Below, in pieces: positions 4,737 to 64,000 of a stretch of DNA of 64,000 nucleotides (position 1 is the first letter of the stretch; every line of letters begins with the position of its first letter). The DNA lies in contig OW240915.1 of the NCBI GenBank assembly GCA_933207985.1, forward strand, positions 279,854,373-279,918,372, written 5' to 3'. The DNA comes from Pelobates cultripes (Eukaryota > Chordata > Amphibia > Anura > Pelobatidae). The notes beneath the pieces are model-generated. The model was not told the DNA's origin, ran no database searches, and saw only the letters and a program-made list of their open reading frames with translations. Made by a program: the position numbers and the translations under genes.

Positions 4737-5040
4737 GTTGTTAGTGCTGTGCGTTCCACGGTGGAACGCACACATATACTTCACCCGCGTCGACGCCGCG
4801 TCGTTTCCGGCGCGACGCACGACTGCGGGTGCTGTGCGTCCCATGGTGGAACGCACATCTATTTCCTGCACGCGAGGGCGCCGCGTCATTTCCGGGGCGG
4901 CGCGTGCATCTCGCAATTGATTGGTCCTCACATGCGAACGCCGCGCCGCTTCCGGTTTGGGCGCGTGCGTTCCACGCTGGCTACCACCATCCATGTAGAC
5001 GCCGGATTACTTCCGGTTTTCACCAACGAGCGTCCCTTTG
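4737..5040. repeat. CpG-rich imperfect direct repeats
   Basis: A GC- and CpG-rich island in AT-rich surroundings. A block starting GTGCTGTGCGT and containing a GGTGGAACGCAC palindrome occurs near 4741 and again near 4828. Each is followed by an xGCGTCxTTTCCGG-like segment, and a more diverged third copy runs about 4930-5040. It lies directly upstream of the TATA-like box and hammerhead-like core at 5087-5159, so it could be the upstream promoter region of that element. A host CpG island is the alternative; no exon is visible. Confidence 0.6.
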
Positions 5041-5120
5041 ATTTGGCCACACCAGGGAGCTATTATCAATTATGGTCAGTATGTTATATTTAAAGGAAGT
5101 TTTTTGATGCATGCTTTTTT

Positions 5121-5159
5121 ACACTTCTGATGAAGCCATTGGCGAAACGCGTTAAGTGT
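5121..5159 (+). ncRNA. Hammerhead-ribozyme-like motif (type I layout)
   Basis: Stem I is ACACTT (5121-5126) paired with AAGTGT (5154-5159), six perfect pairs. The core CTGATGA (5127-5133) is followed by one extra A, then stem II GCC-ATT-GGC (5135-5143), then GAAA. A minimal stem III (A-C, two-base loop, G-T) leads to GTT, the expected cleavage position after 5153. Very short stem III is known from hammerheads of Penelope-like elements and retrozymes. The extra A between CTGATGA and stem II departs from the standard core, so activity is unproven. Confidence 0.65.
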
Positions 5160-5274
5160 TATTTTATATAGCTTTTTATTTTATTGTATTTGTACTACTA
5201 TTAAATATACTTTTAAAGCTATATTTTATCCTCATTCTATTTATATCATCATACTTCCTGGCCTGTATATCCTA

Positions 5275-5340
5275 CAGTGGGGATTATACCACTGTATACC
5301 TTATATACTAGAGCAAGTTATCTGCTCTAGTAAATGTAAG
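5275..5340 (+). ncRNA. Structured module 1: hairpins A and B plus donor-like GTAAGTA
   Basis: Hairpin A pairs CAGTGG (5275-5280) with CCACTG (5289-5294) around loop GGATTATA. Hairpin B pairs CTAGAGCA (5308-5315) with TGCTCTAG (5323-5330). GTAAGTA, a good 5' splice-site match, starts at 5336. The same order recurs at 5470-5535 with different stem sequences. Confidence 0.55.
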
Positions 5341-5469
5341 TATAATATACTTATATTTACTTATTTATACTATTATTGGAAATTACTACACCATTGGAGT
5401 TCTCTGTATTTCTTTTATCTATACCACCACACCATTGGAGTACTCAAGACGCTGGACTTCTCATCCTAA

Positions 5470-5535
5470 GACGGGGATTGTACCGTCCACGCCTATCACG
5501 GTAGAGCTCCCACAGTAGCTCTACCAAATGTGAGT
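5470..5535 (+). ncRNA. Structured module 2: hairpins A and B plus GTGAGT
   Basis: Hairpin A pairs GACGG (5470-5474) with CCGTC (5483-5487) around loop GGATTGTA, almost the module 1 loop. Hairpin B pairs GGTAGAGCT (5500-5508) with AGCTCTACC (5517-5525), nine pairs. GTGAGT starts at 5530. Against module 1 the stems have changed on both sides while pairing is kept. Confidence 0.55.
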
Positions 5536-5810
5536 GTAAAATACCTTCGTTTTATTTATTACTCCTTCTCAATATTGTTAAAAATACTACACTACTGTAT
5601 ATATTTCTTTTTGTTTTCTTTTTGAGGACAAATTACCTGCAACTACTAAGAGACATCAAGTGTATGTATATTTAATTTATATAAGGCGCGGTTTCTCTCC
5701 TCCCCTTTTTATATTGTTCTTATCAAGGCTGGGAATCCTTGTTTTTTGTTACTGCTGCCTATCTACTGTTTATCTTTGGAGTGAGCACCCGACATATCTA
5801 TTTTCCTTCT

Positions 5811-20942: not shown

Positions 20943-21012
20943 CAACTCACAATTTTCTGAGCTAATAAACTTAGCTCAAGTTCTTGCGCCTTAGGGTCCG
21001 TTAAGGTGACCC
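20943..21012 (-). ncRNA. Structured module 2 of copy 2
   Basis: Hairpin A pairs GGGTC (21012-21008 on the minus strand) with GACCC (20998-20994), with CCTTAA in the loop. Hairpin B pairs TGAGCTAA (20978-20971) with TTAGCTCA (20965-20958), eight pairs. GTGAGTTG begins at 20950. Confidence 0.5.
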
Positions 21013-21130
21013 TCTCCCTCCTTTACATCCAGGCTTTCTTATGGATTTGTCCTAGGTAGTTATTGTAAAGGAAATGTATATAGTGTAATATTGTTAAAAA
21101 TAAAAATAGGTGATATAAAAGTACTAATAT

Positions 21131-21196
21131 GTACTCACAAACCCTGAGCCATCCAATAGGCTCCATTTAGATCGCATATGTGGTTAAGGACCACAT
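21131..21196 (-). ncRNA. Structured module 1 of copy 2
   Basis: Hairpin A pairs ATGTGGT with ACCACAT (21178-21184 and 21190-21196), loop CCTTA. Hairpin B pairs GAGCC with GGCTC (21146-21150 and 21159-21163). GTGAGTAC begins at 21138. The CCTTA loop recurs in module 2 of this copy, as GGATTRTA does in copies 1 and 3. Confidence 0.5.
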
Positions 21197-21350
21197 TCCT
21201 TCTTTGTAAAAGCAGTAGAAAGCAGTGCCGGTAGTGTGTTAAAAGTATATACTTTATTACTCAAAAAAAACTTTTAATAATAATTTAGTACTTTAAAAAT
21301 AACACTACTCGGCTATAGTCCAATAAATAGAGTTCAAGTGCTCACTGTTC

Positions 21351-21390
21351 CTCCAGGACACGTTTCGCTAATAGGCTTCCTCAGCTGGAA
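21351..21390 (-). ncRNA. Hammerhead-ribozyme-like motif
   Basis: Minus strand: stem I TTCCAG pairs with CTGGAG (five Watson-Crick pairs and one G-T). The core CTGAGGA fits CUGANGA, in which the N position is variable. One extra A follows, as in the other copies, then a weak stem II (GC...GC), GAAA, a minimal stem III (C, loop GT, G) and GTC. Cleavage would fall between 21357 and 21356. Stem II is weaker than in copy 1, so this copy may be inactive. Confidence 0.55.
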
Positions 21391-21420
21391 AAAGTTCTGT
21401 GCAGACTCTTAAATAAATAA

Positions 21421-25090: not shown

Positions 25091-25247
25091 TATAGCTATA
25101 ATTGTTATTAACCAAAAATCACCAAAACTATTTATGAAGGTCAACAAATAATAGTGCTCTTTTCTCCATGTAAAAATATATGCATAAAATCTGTTGTACT
25201 GCTCAGTGAATTGCCTAATACATATACAGTAGAAAATTTTATGTTAT

Positions 25248-25670
25248 TACCAAAAAGAGAATGCACACTAGAACGATAAAGAATGCAAATATTTAATGAA
25301 CCAACAATTGGTTAAATATGCATATAGCAAAAAAAATCAGAGTGACAATATACAGGCATCAAAAATAAAACAGTAACAATTTACTCACTAGCCTAACCTG
25401 GCAGAAACACAGGTCCCTAATACCCCCAACATTTCGGCACCAACTGGCTGCCTTTTTCAAGGGTGTTTAGTTGGTGCCGAAATGTTGGGGGTATTGGGGA
25501 CCTGTGTTTCTGCCAGGTTAGGCTAGTGAGTACTTTGGTAAATTATTACAGTTTTATTTTTTATGCTTGTATATTGTCACTCTGATTTTTTTATTTTTTG
25601 CTTTAACCAATTGTTGGTTCATTAAATATTTGCATTCTTTATGGTTCTAGTGTGCATTCTCTTTTTGGTA
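25248..25670. mobile_element. 420-bp near-perfect palindrome (foldback element)
   Basis: Arms 25248-25445 and 25469-25670 are nearly exact reverse complements, separated by 23 bp. Matching blocks include TACCAAAAAGAGAATGCACAC, AATGAACCAACAATTGG and CCCCAACATTTCGGCACC. Reading outward, each arm has GTGCCGAAATGTTGG, a hairpin (ACCTG...CAGGT) and GTGAGTA (starting at 25526 on plus and 25388 on minus). That order recalls the hammerhead-bearing repeats. No coding sequence. Arm identity is high, so the insertion is young or arm identity has been maintained by gene conversion. Confidence 0.85.
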
Positions 25671-26440
25671 GTATTTATGTTTAGTTGGTACTTGAGGGAG
25701 TACCTGTGAGTAATAACACCTAGTGTAATACTTTTTCTATTGTTATATATTCTCTCCATCCGGTGTTATTGTAATAGTGTTAATGTTATAACAGTTATCT
25801 TTAATAAATAGTTTTGATACCATATGATTAGTTGTTAGGATTAGATAATTTATTGTGTACAGGGACCATTTCCCCATTTGTCTAGGTGACATAAAGTTTT
25901 TTACCGTCTTTACTTTACATATATGACATACATACTGTTTAATTGACAAAATGCAAGCATGGAATTGACTGAAATTGACAATCATTAGGTTTTGTCTTTA
26001 TTTTAAAACTTTGTTGAGTTATATGCATATAAATTGCAGAAGACCTAAAGCTGCGAGTTTGATGTTATACTTCTTAGACCTATATAGGCATGAAGAGCAC
26101 AGATAATTCAAATTGTTTGATTTGTAATTGCAATATTTAAATTCAAATACAGTTCTTTCATTTCATTATGGCCAGTGACATCATCTCAAATTTCAATGTG
26201 GATATTTTCTACACAGTGACACTCATCTTCTGAATATCATATTTTTACCTTTAGGAAGCAAACAGCTTTTGAATAAAAACATTTAATGCATTATTGTTAA
26301 AATGCAATTCTAGAAGGCCATAAGGACAACATATCCCAATAAATATTTAGTGTGCCATATTTTCTAATACACAATAAACTGGTGTAAACAGATTTCCAGA
26401 TTAGGGTCAAATAGTTTTTGGAACATTCACAACATTTACT
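25671..26440. other. AT-rich non-coding sequence
   Basis: No recognised element. An 80-codon minus frame at 25743-25985 has no motif. Confidence 0.5.
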
Positions 26441-40794: not shown

Positions 40795-40840
40795 CCACAC
40801 TTCTGATGAAGCAATGAGAGGAGAAACATATAAATTGTGG
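40795..40840 (+). ncRNA. Hammerhead-ribozyme-like motif, partly decayed
   Basis: Stem I CCACACTT (40795-40802) pairs with AATTGTGG (40833-40840) at seven of eight positions. The core CTGATGA (40803-40809) is intact and followed by the same extra A, but stem II is disrupted. GAAAC (40823-40827) leads to ATATA, where CGCG of copy 1 has become CATA, as CpG decay would give. Likely inactive. Confidence 0.5.
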
Positions 40841-40982: not shown

Positions 40983-41050
40983 CAAGGTAGGGATTATACC
41001 ACCTGAGGCTTATTATACTAGAGCAAGTCCTGCTGTAAAAAGTGTGAGTA
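40983..41050 (+). ncRNA. Structured module 1 of copy 3
   Basis: The loop GGATTATA (40991-40998) is identical to copy 1, with an imperfect stem AGGTAG / CCACCT. Hairpin B CTAGAGCA / TGCTGTAA keeps six of eight pairs. GTGAGTA begins at 41044. Confidence 0.45.
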
Positions 41051-41089: not shown

Positions 41090-41530
41090 TATTTATTTTT
41101 ACTTCCCATATTTTTGTTTTCTATATTCTATATCTGCACAAGAAATATCCAACTGGGAATACTCTTACCACCTAAACCTACATATATCATTTTGCTTGGA
41201 TTATGCCATCTGTGCAAAATACAACATAGCTCTTAGTTAGCTCTGGAAAACGTGAGTATATTACCAACACAAGTCTGCTAATATTTGCACTTCATCTGTA
41301 CTGTACTGCACTATTATTTGTTTTTGTTCTTTTTGAGATTATTAATACCGAAGTATTTTGAAAAGTATATACTTTTGCTTTTATTGTACTTAAAAATCAT
41401 CGGCTGGGATTTTTCTTTGGTTTAACACATAAGGTTTTGTGAATTCCTGTGTGATTAACTGCTGCCCAGACTATTTATTTATTATAGTGAGCGCCTATCA
41501 CAAAACCTTATTCTTTGTTTGTTGTTCTAT

Positions 41531-53676: not shown

Positions 53677-56345
53677 TTAAAACCTTTGTCCCTCCAATTG
53701 AAGACTATGTCCTCTTGTTGTGGTAGTTTTTCTTCTTTTAAGTATAGTCTCCTCCTTTACTGTGTTGATTACCTTTATATATTTAAATGTTTCTATCATA
53801 TCCCCCCTGTCTCGTCTTTCCTCCAAGCTATACATGTTAAGATCCTTTAACCTTTCCTGGTAAGTTTTATCCCGCAATCCATGAACCAGTTTAGTAGCCC
53901 TTCTCTGAACCCTCTCTAAGGTGTCAATATCCTTCTGAAGATACGGTCTCCAGTACTGTGTACAATACTCCAAGTGAGGTCTCACCAGTGTTCTGTACAA
54001 TGGCATGAGCACTTCCCTCTTTCTACTGCTAATACCTCTCCCTATACAACCAAGCATTCTGCTAGCATTTCCTGCTGCTCTATTACATTGTCTGCCTACC
54101 TTTAAGTCATCAGAAATAATCACCCCTAAATCCCTTTCCTCAATTGTTGAGGTTAGGACTCTATCAAATATTCTGTACTCTGCCCTTGGGTTTTTACGTC
54201 CAAGATGCATTATCTTGCACTTATCCACATTAAATGTCAGTTGCCACAATTCTGACCATTTTTCTAGTTTACCTAAATCATTTGCCATTTGGCTTATCCC
54301 TCCTGGAACATCAACCCTGTTACATATCTTAGTATCATCAGCAAAAAGACATACCTTACCATCAAGACCTTCTGCGATATCACTAATAAAAATATTAAAG
54401 AGAATGGGTCCAAGTACAGATCCCTGAGGTACCCCACTGGTGACAAGTCCAAGCTTCGAATATATATTCCATTAACTTCAACCCTCTGTTGCCTGTCACT
54501 CAGCCACTGCCTTACCCATTCAACAATATTGGAATCCAAACTTAAAGATTGCAGTTTATTGATAAGCCTTCTATGTGCAACAGTGTCAAAAGCCTTACTG
54601 AAATCTAGGTAAGCAATGTCTACTGCACCACCCTGATCTATAATTTTAGTTACCCAATCAAAAAAATCAATAAGATTAGTTTGGCATGATCTCCCTGAAG
54701 TAAATCCATGTTGTCTCTGATCTTGAAATCCATGTGTTTTTAGATGTTCAACAATCCTATCCTTTAACATGGTTTCCATCACTTTCCCCACTACTGAAGT
54801 AAGGCTTACTGGCCTATAGTTGCCCGACTCCTCCCTATTACCTTTCTTGTAAATAGGCACAACATTCGCTAACTTCCAATCTTCTGGGACTACTCCTGTT
54901 AACAATGATTGGTTAAATAAATCTGTTAATGGTTTTGCTAGTACACCAATAAGCTCTTTTAATAGCTTTGGGTATATTCCATCAGGTCCCATTGACTTAT
55001 TTGTCTTTACTTTTGACAGTTGAAATAGAACCTCTTCCTCTGTAAACTCACGTGTAATAAGTGACTCCTGTATCCTTTTTCTCAACTGAGGTCCTTTTCC
55101 TTCATTTTCATCTGTAAATACAGAACAAAAATATTTATTGAGGCAGTCAGCTAGCCCTTTATCTTCTTCTACATACCTTCCTTCTTTTGTTTTTAATCTA
55201 AGTAATCCTTGTTTTACTTTTCTTTTCTCATTTATGTATCTAAAAAATGTTTTGTCCCCCTTTTTTACTGACTGTGCTATTTTCTCTTCTGTGTGTGATT
55301 TGGAAGCTCTTATAACTTGCTTAGCCTCTTTCTGCCTAATCTTATAGATCATTTTGTCTTCCTCACTCTGGGTTTTTTTATAATTCCTAAATGCTAACTT
55401 TTTGTTTTTAACTATTTTGGCCACATCTGCGGAGTACCACAGTGGTTTCTTGAATTTTTTGCTTTTACTGACAAGCCTAATGCAATTTTCTGTTGCCTTC
55501 AATAGTGCAACTTTTAAATAATCCCATTTCTCTTGGACTCCATTTAAATTGCTCCAGTCTGATAATGACTCCTCTACCCATATTCTAATTTTAGAAAAGT
55601 CTGTTTTTCTAAAGTCTAAAACTTTTGTTTTTGTGTGGTGTGACTCAGTCACTGTTCTTATATTAAACCACACCGACTGATGATCACTGGATCCTAAACT
55701 TTCACCTACAGTAATATCTGATACCAAATCTCCATTTGTTAACACTAACAAATTTTTTTTAGAGACAATCCCAGTAGTGAGTTTAGAATAGGTGTGCTCC
55801 TGGCACAAGTAGCTAATTTTGTTTTCCAATTCACATCAGGTAGATTAAAGTCACCCATGATGATAACTTCCCCCTTCATTGTCATTTTAGCTATTTCCTC
55901 TACTAGTAGATTATCTAACTCTTCAATTTGTCCTGGGGGCCTATAAATCACACCTACACGAGTTACGAGTTACTGTGTGATTACCAAATTCTAACGTAAC
56001 CCAAACGGACTCTATGTTTGCCTCACTAACTTTTATTAGGCTAGATTTTATGCTATCCTTCACATACAGGGCCACCCCTCCCCCTTTCTTGCTTTCCCTA
56101 TCTTTTTTGTATAAAGAGTACTCTGGTATTGCTATGTCCCAGTCATTTCTCTCATTATACCATGTCTCAGTAACAGCGACTAAATCTACACTATCAGTTG
56201 CCATTATTGCCACAAGTTCATGGATCTTTTCCCCTAAACTGCGAGCATTTGTAGACATGAATCTAAGCTTATCATTTTTTAGCACACTTGCTACAGGCAC
56301 GTTCTGTCCTTGTTTTGGGGGACAATTGGATTGATGTTTTATCAC
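53677..56345 (-). pseudogene. CR1 ORF2 (endonuclease and reverse transcriptase), broken
   Basis: Frames in order: 56345-55941 has MSTNARSLGEKIHELVAI and VAVTETWYNERND (endonuclease). 55951-55745 has VIIMGDFNLPDVNW. 55829-54294 has GSSDHQSVWFNIR, the linker, NKSMGPDGIYPKLLKEL, NYRPVSLTSVVGKVME and IAYLDFSKAFDTVAHRR. 54288-53677 has KCKIMHLGRKN, EERDLGVIISDDLKV and YRTLVRPHLEYCTQYW. Breaks: a 7-base duplication near 55966-55980, a deletion near 55750-55765 relative to the copy at 63.3 kb, and a shift near 54440 that puts the SGVPQGS and catalytic FADD blocks out of frame. Confidence 0.9.
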
Positions 56346-57339: not shown

Positions 57340-57423
57340 TCCAATGAGAAAAATAATTTAACTCAAACTAATCTTAACTTTTTTCTTTATCCTCCTGAAT
57401 ACCTCAGATTACCTCCAGTTTAT

Positions 57424-57697
57424 CTCCAGAATATCTCCAACTACACACTTAGAAGCAGCACTCTCCAGAATATCTCCAACTACACACTTAGAAGCAGCAC
57501 TCTCCAGAATATCTCCAACTACACACTTAGAAGCAGCACTCTCCAGAATATCTCCAACTACACACTTAGAAGCAACACTCTCCAGAATATCTCCAACTAC
57601 ACACTTAGAAGCAGCACTCTCCAGAATATCTCCAACTACACACTTAGAAGCAACACTCTCCAGAATATCTCCAACTACACACTTAGAAGCAACACTT
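57424..57697 (-). repeat. 39-bp tandem monomers in CR1 5' UTR
   Basis: Seven units of 39 bp (CTCCAGAATATCTCCAACTA + CACACTTAGAAGCAGCACT), differing by an occasional G/A. An eighth single unit lies upstream in the element at 58000-58038. They read through as a 13-residue repeat on the minus strand but lie before ORF1. They resemble promoter monomers of some rodent L1s in layout only. Confidence 0.9.
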
Positions 57698-57710
57698 AGG
57701 TGAAGCAACC

Positions 57711-57755
57711 AAGCTATATTAGCCAAGCTAATGACAACAAGCCTTATATAACTCC
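57711..57755 (-). promoter_or_regulatory. Internal TATA-like promoter in the CR1 5' UTR
   Basis: TATATAAGG on the minus strand (57750-57742) is about 35 bases before AGCTTGGTTGCTTCACC (starting 57715). The element's outer 5' end at 58058 begins with exactly that AGCTTGG sequence, so it looks like a transcript start. A CAGGTAAGA splice-donor-like site lies upstream near 57930-57945. Confidence 0.6.
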
Positions 57756-62724: not shown

Positions 62725-64000
62725 GTAACTGTAGCGAATGTGTTAAAAAAATTATGAACTTAGAGTCATGTCTACAAATGCTCGCAGTTTAGGGAATAAG
62801 ATCCATGAACTTATTGCAATAATGGCAACTGAGAATGTAGATTTAGTGGCTATTACTGAGACATGGTATAATGAGAAAAATGATGGGGAAATAGCAATAC
62901 CAGGGTACTCTTTATATAGAAAAGACAGGGGAGGCAAGAAAGGGGGAGGGGTGGCCCTGTATGTGAAGGATAGCATAAAATCTAGCCTAATAAAAGTTAG
63001 TGAGGCAAACATAGAGTCCGTTTGGGTTACGTTAGAATTTGGAAATCACACAGTAACTTCTGTAGGTGTGATTTATAGGCTCCCAGAACAAATAGAAGAG
63101 TTAGATAATCTACCAGTTGAGGAAATAGCTAAAATAACAATGAAGGGGGAAGTTGTCATCATGGGTGACTTTAATCTTCCTGATGTGAATTGGAAAACCA
63201 AAATAGCTGCTTGTGCCAGGAGCACACATATTCTAAACTCCCTACTGGGATTGTCTCTGAAACAAGTCGTTGAGGAGCCAACTCATAAAGAGGCCATACT
63301 AGATTTAGTGTTAACAAATGGAGATTTGGTATCAGATACTACTGTAGGTGAAAGTTTAGGATCCAGTGATCATCAGTCAGTTTGGTTTAATTTAAGAACA
63401 GTCACTGAGTCACACCACACAAAAACAAAAGTTTTAGACTTTAGAAAAACAGACTTTTGTAAAATTAGTAGAAATGTGTAAAGGAGTCACTATCAGACTG
63501 GAGCAATTTTAAATGGAGTCCAAGAGAAATTGGATTTAAAAGTTGCACTACTGGAAGCAACAGAAAATTCAATTAGGCATGTCAGGAAGAGCTGAAAAAT
63601 TATTAAATCACTTTGGTACTCCGCAGAAGTGGTCAAAATAGTAAAAAACAAAAAGTTGGCATTTAGTAATTATAAAAACCCAGAGTGAGGAAAACAGACA
63701 TCTATAAGGGTAGGCAGAAAGAGGCAAAGCAAGTTATAAGAGCCTCCAAAGCACACACAGAAGAGAAAATAGCACAGTCAGTTAAAAAAGGGGATCAAAC
63801 ATTTTTTTAGATACATAAATGAGAAAAGGAAAGTAAAACAAGGATTAGTTAGATTAAAAACAAAAGAAGGAAGGTTTTTAGAAGAGGATAAAGGTCTAGC
63901 TGACTGCCTGAATGAATATTTTTGTTCAGTATTTACAGATGAAAATGAAGGAGAGGGACTTGAGTTAAGAAAAAAGGACAAATTAGGCTTTTGTTACATG
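62725..64000 (+). mobile_element. Second CR1 copy, 5'-truncated, runs off the window
   Basis: From about 62725 the plus strand matches the minus-strand CR1 (GTAGCGAATGTGTTAAA versus GTAGCAAGTGTGCTAAA) and continues through endonuclease and linker. It starts just before ORF2, so ORF1 and 5' UTR are missing. The 3' part lies beyond the window. Confidence 0.9.
62768..63481 (+). pseudogene. CR1 ORF2 endonuclease domain, then broken
   Basis: A 237-codon frame covers the AP endonuclease: MSTNARSLGNKIHELIAI, VAITETWYNEKND, IPGYSLYRKDRGGKKGGG, VVIMGDFNLPDVNW, ILDLVLTNGDLVSD and SLGSSDHQSVWFN. The metal-binding N, E, D-N and S-D-H blocks are all present. It stops at 63481 where the linker shifts frame; further linker remnants with stops continue to the window end. 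It retains the stretch deleted in the copy at 55750. Confidence 0.9.

Follow-up and report, generated by a model that had tools for sequence, protein, structure and literature searches.

Three hammerhead-bearing repeats in the window

The 64,000-nucleotide stretch of the Pelobates cultripes genome analysed here (the window) contains three diverged copies of a repeat, at 5.1 kb, 21.4-20.9 kb and 40.8-41.3 kb. The first-pass annotation had assigned them one layout, a TATTTAA box and a hammerhead core followed by two modules, each consisting of hairpin A, hairpin B and a donor-like GTRAGT. The positions and the shared layout were borne out (Table 1). The spacings were exactly as claimed, namely 209, 246 and 241 bp from the core to the first GTRAGT and 194, 188 and 208 bp from the first to the second GTRAGT in copies 1, 2 and 3, respectively.

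Table 1. Features of the three repeat copies in the window.
Feature	Position	Strand	Remarks
Copy 1 TATA-like box TATTTAA	5087..5093	+	40 nt upstream of hammerhead core
Copy 1 hammerhead	5121..5159	+	minimal type I; helix III is palindromic ACGCGT
Copy 1 ATTAAA	5200..5205	+	poly(A)-signal-like
Copy 1 exon 1	5278-5335	+	58 nt
Copy 1 exon 1 hairpin A	5274..5295	+	acceptor CTACAG ends at 5277, within the 5' arm
Copy 1 exon 1 hairpin B	5307..5331	+
Copy 1 intron 1	5336..5470	+	GTAAGT..CCTAAG, 135 nt; exact loss of the same intron in L308
Copy 1 exon 2	5471..5529	+	59 nt; hairpin A 5470-5487, hairpin B 5500-5525
Copy 1 intron 2	5530..5626	+	GTGAGT..TTTTTGAG, 97 nt; exact loss of the same intron in L311 and L312
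Copy 1 exon 3 start	5627	+
Copy 1 GTGAGCAC	5781..5788	+	last clear stretch in common with copy 3 (GTGAGCGC, 41487)
Copy 2 TATA-like box TATTTAA	21409..21415	-
Copy 2 hammerhead	21349..21392	-
Copy 2 module 1	21133..21202	-	inferred exon borders; hairpin A 21178-21196, hairpin B 21145-21164, donor GTGAGT 21133-21138
Copy 2 module 2	20945..21021	-	inferred exon borders; hairpin A 20993-21013, hairpin B 20957-20979, donor GTGAGT 20945-20950
Copy 3 TATA-like box TATTTAA	40766..40772	+
Copy 3 hammerhead	40796..40839	+	decayed
Copy 3 module 1	40985..41049	+	hairpin A 40985-41004, hairpin B 41020-41036, 1 mismatch in each; donor GTGAGT 41044-41049
Copy 3 module 2	41176..41257	+	hairpin A broken; hairpin B 41225-41245; donor GTGAGT 41252-41257
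Copy 3 intron 2, predicted end	41337	+

The base preceding GTRAGT is T in five, C in one and G in none of the six modules of copies 1 to 3. Usual splice donors prefer a G just before GT, and the module donors of these copies differ in this respect. Upstream of copy 1 lies a GC-rich region (4744-5060) with repeated TTCCGG and an 85-bp repeat containing palindromes, which is probably the promoter and exon 0 of the element. At the 3' end of copy 3 (about 41428-41510) a perfect 14-bp inverted repeat, ATAAGGTTTTGTGA / TCACAAAACCTTAT, surrounds GTGAGCGC; it was not seen in copies 1 and 2. The window contains other repeats, too: a long broken inverted repeat (55076-56280 and 62746-63974, 86-96% complementary, arms about 6.5-8.5 kb apart), an array of a 39-bp unit with seven near-identical steps (57384-57735) and nested palindromes with 72-bp arms (97% and 94%) at 25245-25673, where Rfam gave a mir-147 match far below the gathering score.

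With thresholds chosen after the copies had been seen, a generic hammerhead scan of the window detected two sites, those of copies 1 and 2 (200 simulated windows: mean 0.145, maximum 2), and the only two hairpin-GTRAGT pairs spaced 170-225 apart were located behind these two hammerheads (simulated windows: mean 0.095, at least two pairs in 1 of 200). The likewise post hoc pattern GAGC..GCTC-N7/8-GTRAGT has four matches in the window, all in copies 1 and 2, and none in 100 shuffles.

Copies 1 and 3 are clearly homologous from TATTTAA onward (alignment score 291.5; best of 30 shuffles 145.5). The sequence likeness of copy 2 is modest (215 vs 176.5; leader alone 157 vs 133.5), and this copy is related more by layout than by sequence. 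With a covariance model built from copies 1 and 3, the modules of copy 2 reached only 9.4 and 6.0 bits; of the four top matches of this model in the 1-kb copy 2 stretch, three were on the wrong strand, one of them outscoring the modules. Copies 1 and 3 together have four modules with 16 stem pairs, eight of which are changed on both sides (3.8 in shuffles). Stems are weak or broken in copies 2 and 3. The copy 3 stems have decayed (stem B, shuffle P = 0.316 and 0.246), and stem B of copy 2 is not unusual in the first module (P = 0.118) and reaches P = 0.004 in the second. The window has 77 GTRAGT sites in all, and when their adjoining stems are ranked by strength, two of the top three are found at unrelated sites.

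A genome-wide family with covarying hairpin exons

The layout had been proposed to define a family, and this proved correct on a large scale. In the P. cultripes genome (3,086,115,345 bases), a strict hammerhead pattern had 1,940 exact matches (942 + 998) and a strict pattern of hairpin B and GTRAGT had 18,911 (9,552 + 9,359); both reversed-pattern controls gave 0. Matches were frequently found in -/+ pairs with identical stem. Copies 1 and 3 belong to one subfamily together with L262, L269, L270 and L304-L307, and scored 893.5 and 257.5, respectively, against L270 (best shuffles 128.5 and 124.5). The loops and flanks of copy 2 resemble by eye those of the L245/L254/L301 subfamily. It was not singled out as a member, because L301 gives it no better score (159; best shuffle 115.5) than copy 1 does (157; 133.5). 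Three modules are present in L269 and L291. Among 242 loci listed from viral and other genome contigs there were 120 module-like and 122 hammerhead-like matches and none with both; these matches look like chance, and one of the loci (L169) passes a simple stem check.

In the copy-1 type and its kin each module is an exon of 57-70 nt. Hairpin A has the acceptor AG at its foot or next to it, and 7-8 nt separate the GCTC of hairpin B from the donor. Covariation was analysed in 28 non-redundant modules with a GGAT loop. Here, 86.7% of the cells were paired (shuffled 73.6%, slid versions at most 43.2%), and 71 cells differed on both sides (shuffled 27.5, slid at most 16). The number of further pair types was not raised (19 vs 21.1 shuffled). 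Hairpin B had been preselected through GAGC/GCTC in the search pattern, and the pairing of these bases is uninformative because it is fixed by that pattern. The stem-B pair next to it, the closing pair, was formed in 41 of 44 modules (expected 19.7), as T-A in 19, A-T in 13 and C-G in 9. Both hairpins, as judged from the aligned modules, are maintained by compensatory change. The first-pass annotation had made its proposal depend on a family with this layout and on covariation in the A and B stems; the family is present and both stems covary.

Furthermore, ATCC was found 5-16 nt upstream of GGAT in 25 of the 28 modules. The corresponding AUCC-GGAU pairing hardly varies and is therefore not probed by covariation. 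Copy-2-like modules appear, by eye, to have AGG/CCT in place of ATCC/GGAT, which suggests, short of proof, a second pairing.

The copies as leaders of Penelope-like elements

The repeats had been regarded as a separate non-autonomous family. This view is disfavoured because the leaders belong to elements with reverse transcriptase (RT) frames: they are the 5' leaders (pLTRs) of Penelope-like elements (PLEs). Many leader copies are truncated and without reading frames, including all three in the window, which are most likely what is left of pLTR leaders from P. cultripes PLEs that carry introns and a hammerhead. The locus L301 (C1:133892500-133900500) comprises two direct tandem PLE units, in which a hammerhead and a module are followed by ORF1 (393-aa frame), the RT frame (735 aa) and then a second hammerhead and module. 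This order recurs in L302 and L303, but each of these has a single donor site, and some of their frames are broken. In all three tandem loci, which belong to subfamilies other than that of copy 1, the reading frames lie downstream of the hammerhead and the donor site(s).

The 735-aa frame of L301 matched RVT_1 with an E value of 1.2e-6 and 28.9 bits, slightly below the Pfam cut-off of 29.6. It has 1,510 relatives, the best of them in frogs, where they are widespread; we place it among the PLEs by its sequence, not by a tree. A PDB search with this frame gave nothing meaningful. Pfam returned no match for ORF1 of L301 or for the copy-1-type C-terminal frame, and no GIY-YIG domain was detected in the L301 frame at E 10. 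A weak GIY-YIG match (E 0.01, 16.6 bits, cut-off 22.6) was obtained for the copy-1-type fragment of L304, and PF01541 is present in three among the 120 RT relatives listed (of 1,510), a fourth bearing that name.

Inverted arms were found in all 18 retrieved -/+ pairs (L251-L268), which had been selected for that orientation; one of them is a 187-bp palindrome. PLE-like reading frames were recognized by eye in 16 of the 18 spans and are absent from L258 and L259. In L258 (1460-1646) two outward-facing hammerheads stand head to head in the 187-bp palindrome, a minimal inverted-pLTR product. The arms are mostly 94-100% identical over 0.4-2.5 kb, suggesting recent insertions. The pLTRs are arranged as inverted arms in these pairs and as direct tandems in L301, L302 and L303, a combination that has been called typical of Penelope (PMC3846280). 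An assignment to DNA transposons with terminal inverted repeats was considered and rejected, given the PLE-like frames in 16 of 18 spans and the fact that inverted pLTRs are usual for Penelope. For target site duplications the best match was 5-6 nt in five of the 18 elements and none was seen in 13, the element ends being poorly defined.

Hammerhead, promoter and poly(A) context

The hammerhead ribozyme is a predicted self-cleaving RNA. Its helix II begins with A-C, and the Rfam model RF00163 gave it 13.1 bits (E 1.1, 81-nt search), below the gathering score of 34. No hammerhead was found by Rfam in the whole window at the gathering score and at E<=10. Across the 100 genome matches listed, the core and the covarying helix II are kept, and the differences in stem II among these matches are compensatory changes.

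Loci retrieved by the hammerhead pattern alone contain 56 hammerhead sites, of which 19 are distinct, and the flanks of these 19 were inspected. A TATA-like box was present at -60..-20 of the hammerhead in 8 of 19 sites (mirror 0). Eleven sites have A[AT]TAAA 40-260 nt downstream (upstream 5), and 11 have GTRAGT at a distance of 140-375 nt (mirror 3). In copies 1 to 3 a poly(A)-like signal is located about 120-136 nt upstream of the first donor. There may be two transcription starts, one upstream of exon 0 and another directly ahead of the hammerhead.

Intron loss in genomic copies

The donor-like sites are true splice donors in the copy-1 type and its kin, because there are genomic copies with exact intron loss, and probably also in copy 2. 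Five such copies were detected, one lacking intron 1, two lacking intron 2 and two lacking the hammerhead-bearing intron 0. The junctions had been predicted from aligned copies, with each module taken as an exon, and were then searched for in the genome. The exon 1-exon 2 junction gave two matches, L308 and L309. Compared to L284, L308 shows an exact 128-nt GT..AG loss with donor 2 retained; a second pattern for this junction found L308 again and nothing further. L309 was rejected as a spliced copy, being a chance palindrome. The exon 2-exon 3 junction, for which the acceptor TTTTTGAG followed by GA had been predicted beforehand, gave two matches, L311 and L312 (control 0). Both exhibit exact loss with the break at the same base, and both have kept the 3' end of intron 1, while their sequences are distinct. 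The exon end followed by GTGAGT at intron 2 was found in 455 unspliced copies, some of them from subfamilies whose exon 3 may start differently, compared to two spliced copies.

For the exon 0-exon 1 junction (17 bases) there were 22 genome matches. The ten loci read comprise two junctions (L316, L318), two acceptor point mutants (L313, L315) and six ambiguous cases. In L316 and L318, read over 166-171 nt of the exon 0-exon 1 region only, exon 0 (CACACCAGGAAG.., 26 nt to the junction) runs straight into exon 1 without a hammerhead. In all 31 unspliced relatives the exon-0 end has the same 26-nt length and is followed by GTAAGT, and in one of them (L262) it continues into a part-deleted hammerhead. 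These loci indicate that the hammerhead of the copy-1 type lies in an intron. Donor 0, GTAAGT, is located 48-49 nt upstream of the core in eight of nine copy-1-type sites; it has been lost in the window copy, where it would be expected at about 5083.

From these alignments the copy-1 type is read as starting with the GC-rich upstream region and exon 0, followed by the donor and intron 0, which contains the TATA-like box, the hammerhead and the poly(A)-like signal. Next come exon 1 and intron 1, then exon 2 and intron 2, and finally exon 3; exons 1 and 2 each contain a hairpin A and a hairpin B. By the same alignments, all three introns are spliceable in the copy-1 type and its close kin, and nearly all copies retain them.

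Possible function of the structured leader

The best explanation, which we consider probable, is that these PLEs possess a leader with structured splice sites, leading to inefficient splicing and to an unspliced sense template. As spliceable introns are almost never lost, the template would normally be unspliced, and the sense-strand GT-AG junctions in genomic copies indicate that sense RNA does get copied. The structures at acceptors and donors may offer a cause for poor splicing. The hairpins would render the splice sites weak or switchable, aided by pairing of the invariant upstream AUCC with GGAU of loop A, either as a pseudoknot or as an alternative hairpin with the acceptor in its loop. 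If the hairpins weaken the splice sites in this way, much of the sense RNA would remain unspliced and could be used as retrotransposition template, and the spliced RNA would mainly serve as mRNA. With the ribozyme in intron 0 (copy-1 type), splicing would delete it and only unspliced RNA would retain it.

It is possible, and we suggest it only tentatively, that the leader acts as an RNA switch which directs a single transcript to either of two fates. At each acceptor, the choice between splicing and no splicing would then fall to the two hairpins and the AUCC-GGAU pairing. Spliced RNA would become mRNA, the ribozyme being discarded along with intron 0. Unspliced RNA would become template, and the retained ribozyme might serve as a mark or as a trimming device. 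If this is true, covarying duplicated mini-exons together with an intronic ribozyme let a retroelement keep its introns through retrotransposition.

Alternatively, intron keeping could have another cause, namely an antisense template (PMC3846280), and the hairpins may also, or instead, bind RT. That they act chiefly as a site for binding or packaging by the element's own RT-endonuclease, with the introns as passengers retained for other reasons, seems unlikely to us. The modules are duplicated, up to three, and covarying, and the RNA stretch that the lizard PLE PAc requires for insertion is located at the pLTR-ORF junction, within the ORF's initial 172 nt (PMC11167929), which would agree with such a role. 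However, the present hairpins lie in the leader and not in the ORF, and they are fixed relative to used splice sites, at the donor as well as at the acceptor; moreover, RT binding and splicing functions can coexist. We regard it as improbable that the donors mainly recruit U1 snRNP in order to silence the poly(A)-like signal behind the hammerhead, splicing being a side effect. The excess of A[AT]TAAA and GTRAGT behind the hammerhead and the position of the poly(A)-like signal before the first donor in copies 1 to 3 fit this explanation, but the acceptors are conserved too, exact intron losses exist, and poly(A)-like hexamers are frequent in A+T-rich DNA.

There is very little to recommend a separate non-autonomous retrozyme-like family spreading as cleaved or circular RNA. 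The hammerhead is of the amphibian weak-helix-III type (PMC7229834) and many copies, like those of the window, lack reading frames, but the leaders are part of elements with RT frames, and the hammerheads of L301 are 4.8 kb apart with frames in between, instead of 170-400 nt as in the short non-coding retrozyme-type unit. Equally implausible is an origin of the five spliced copies by chance deletion or assembly error, with hairpins conserved by shared descent only. The events are indeed few and several were read over 166-201 nt only. However, three different introns are affected, the gaps being exact GT..AG losses at sites that had been predicted; L311 and L312, two distinct sequences, share the base at which they break, L308 is exact over 128 nt, and the covariation is far above that of shuffles and slides.

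Structured splice sites with an unspliced sense template, the explanation we prefer, would address the open question of how PLEs retain introns while copying via RNA. The rarity of spliced copies is measurable (intron 2: 2 vs 455), and splice sites within covarying structures would be a concrete, testable cause of intron retention.

Comparison with known systems

PLEs with hammerheads in their pLTRs were reportedly described by Cervera and De la Pena in 2014, and Arkhipova is said to have reported intron-keeping Penelope elements in 2003. Hammerheads are common, but not universal, in PLE pLTRs. Retroviral leaders, such as that of HIV-1, combine a poly(A) signal with a major splice donor that is structured, and their structured splice sites determine how much RNA is spliced or left unspliced; this is a likeness in the way of working, and HIV-1 is not a relative of the Pelobates elements. 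Hammerhead PLEs, intron-keeping PLEs, repeat-borne hammerheads of frogs and weak-helix-III hammerheads of amphibians are already known. A literature search, covering few subscription journals and sources partly in excerpt, found no account of covarying mini-exons at PLE splice sites or of spliced PLE copies.

PAc of Anolis is similar in having a telomerase-like RT frame, tandem pLTRs and a hammerhead in the pLTR (PMC11167929). It differs in that no tandem hairpin exons or leader splice sites are described in the available text of that report, and the words 'splic' and 'hairpin' are absent from its main text. The repeat-borne hammerheads of Xenopus tropicalis and related intronic vertebrate hammerheads (PMC3088659) resemble the present ones as hammerheads in interspersed frog repeats and, with regard to the copy-1 type, by their location in an intron; a module architecture is not described for the Xenopus repeats in the part of the paper available. 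Axolotl retrozymes share the amphibian hammerhead with a weak helix III and a palindromic loop. They are 330-350-bp non-coding tandem repeats giving rise to circular RNA (PMC7229834), whereas the Pelobates hammerhead belongs to the leader of a coding element. In frogs, genome size is reported to be associated with the summed length of Penelope inserts, but not with their number or recent activity (PMC12822217).

The Penelope elements of Adineta vaga have kept spliceosomal introns, too, and possess direct and inverted pLTRs (PMC3846280). In that study an antisense template is favoured, and unspliced sense RNA is left as a possibility. Unlike in Adineta vaga, sense-spliced copies exist in Pelobates, and the structured splice sites may offer a cause for the retention of introns.
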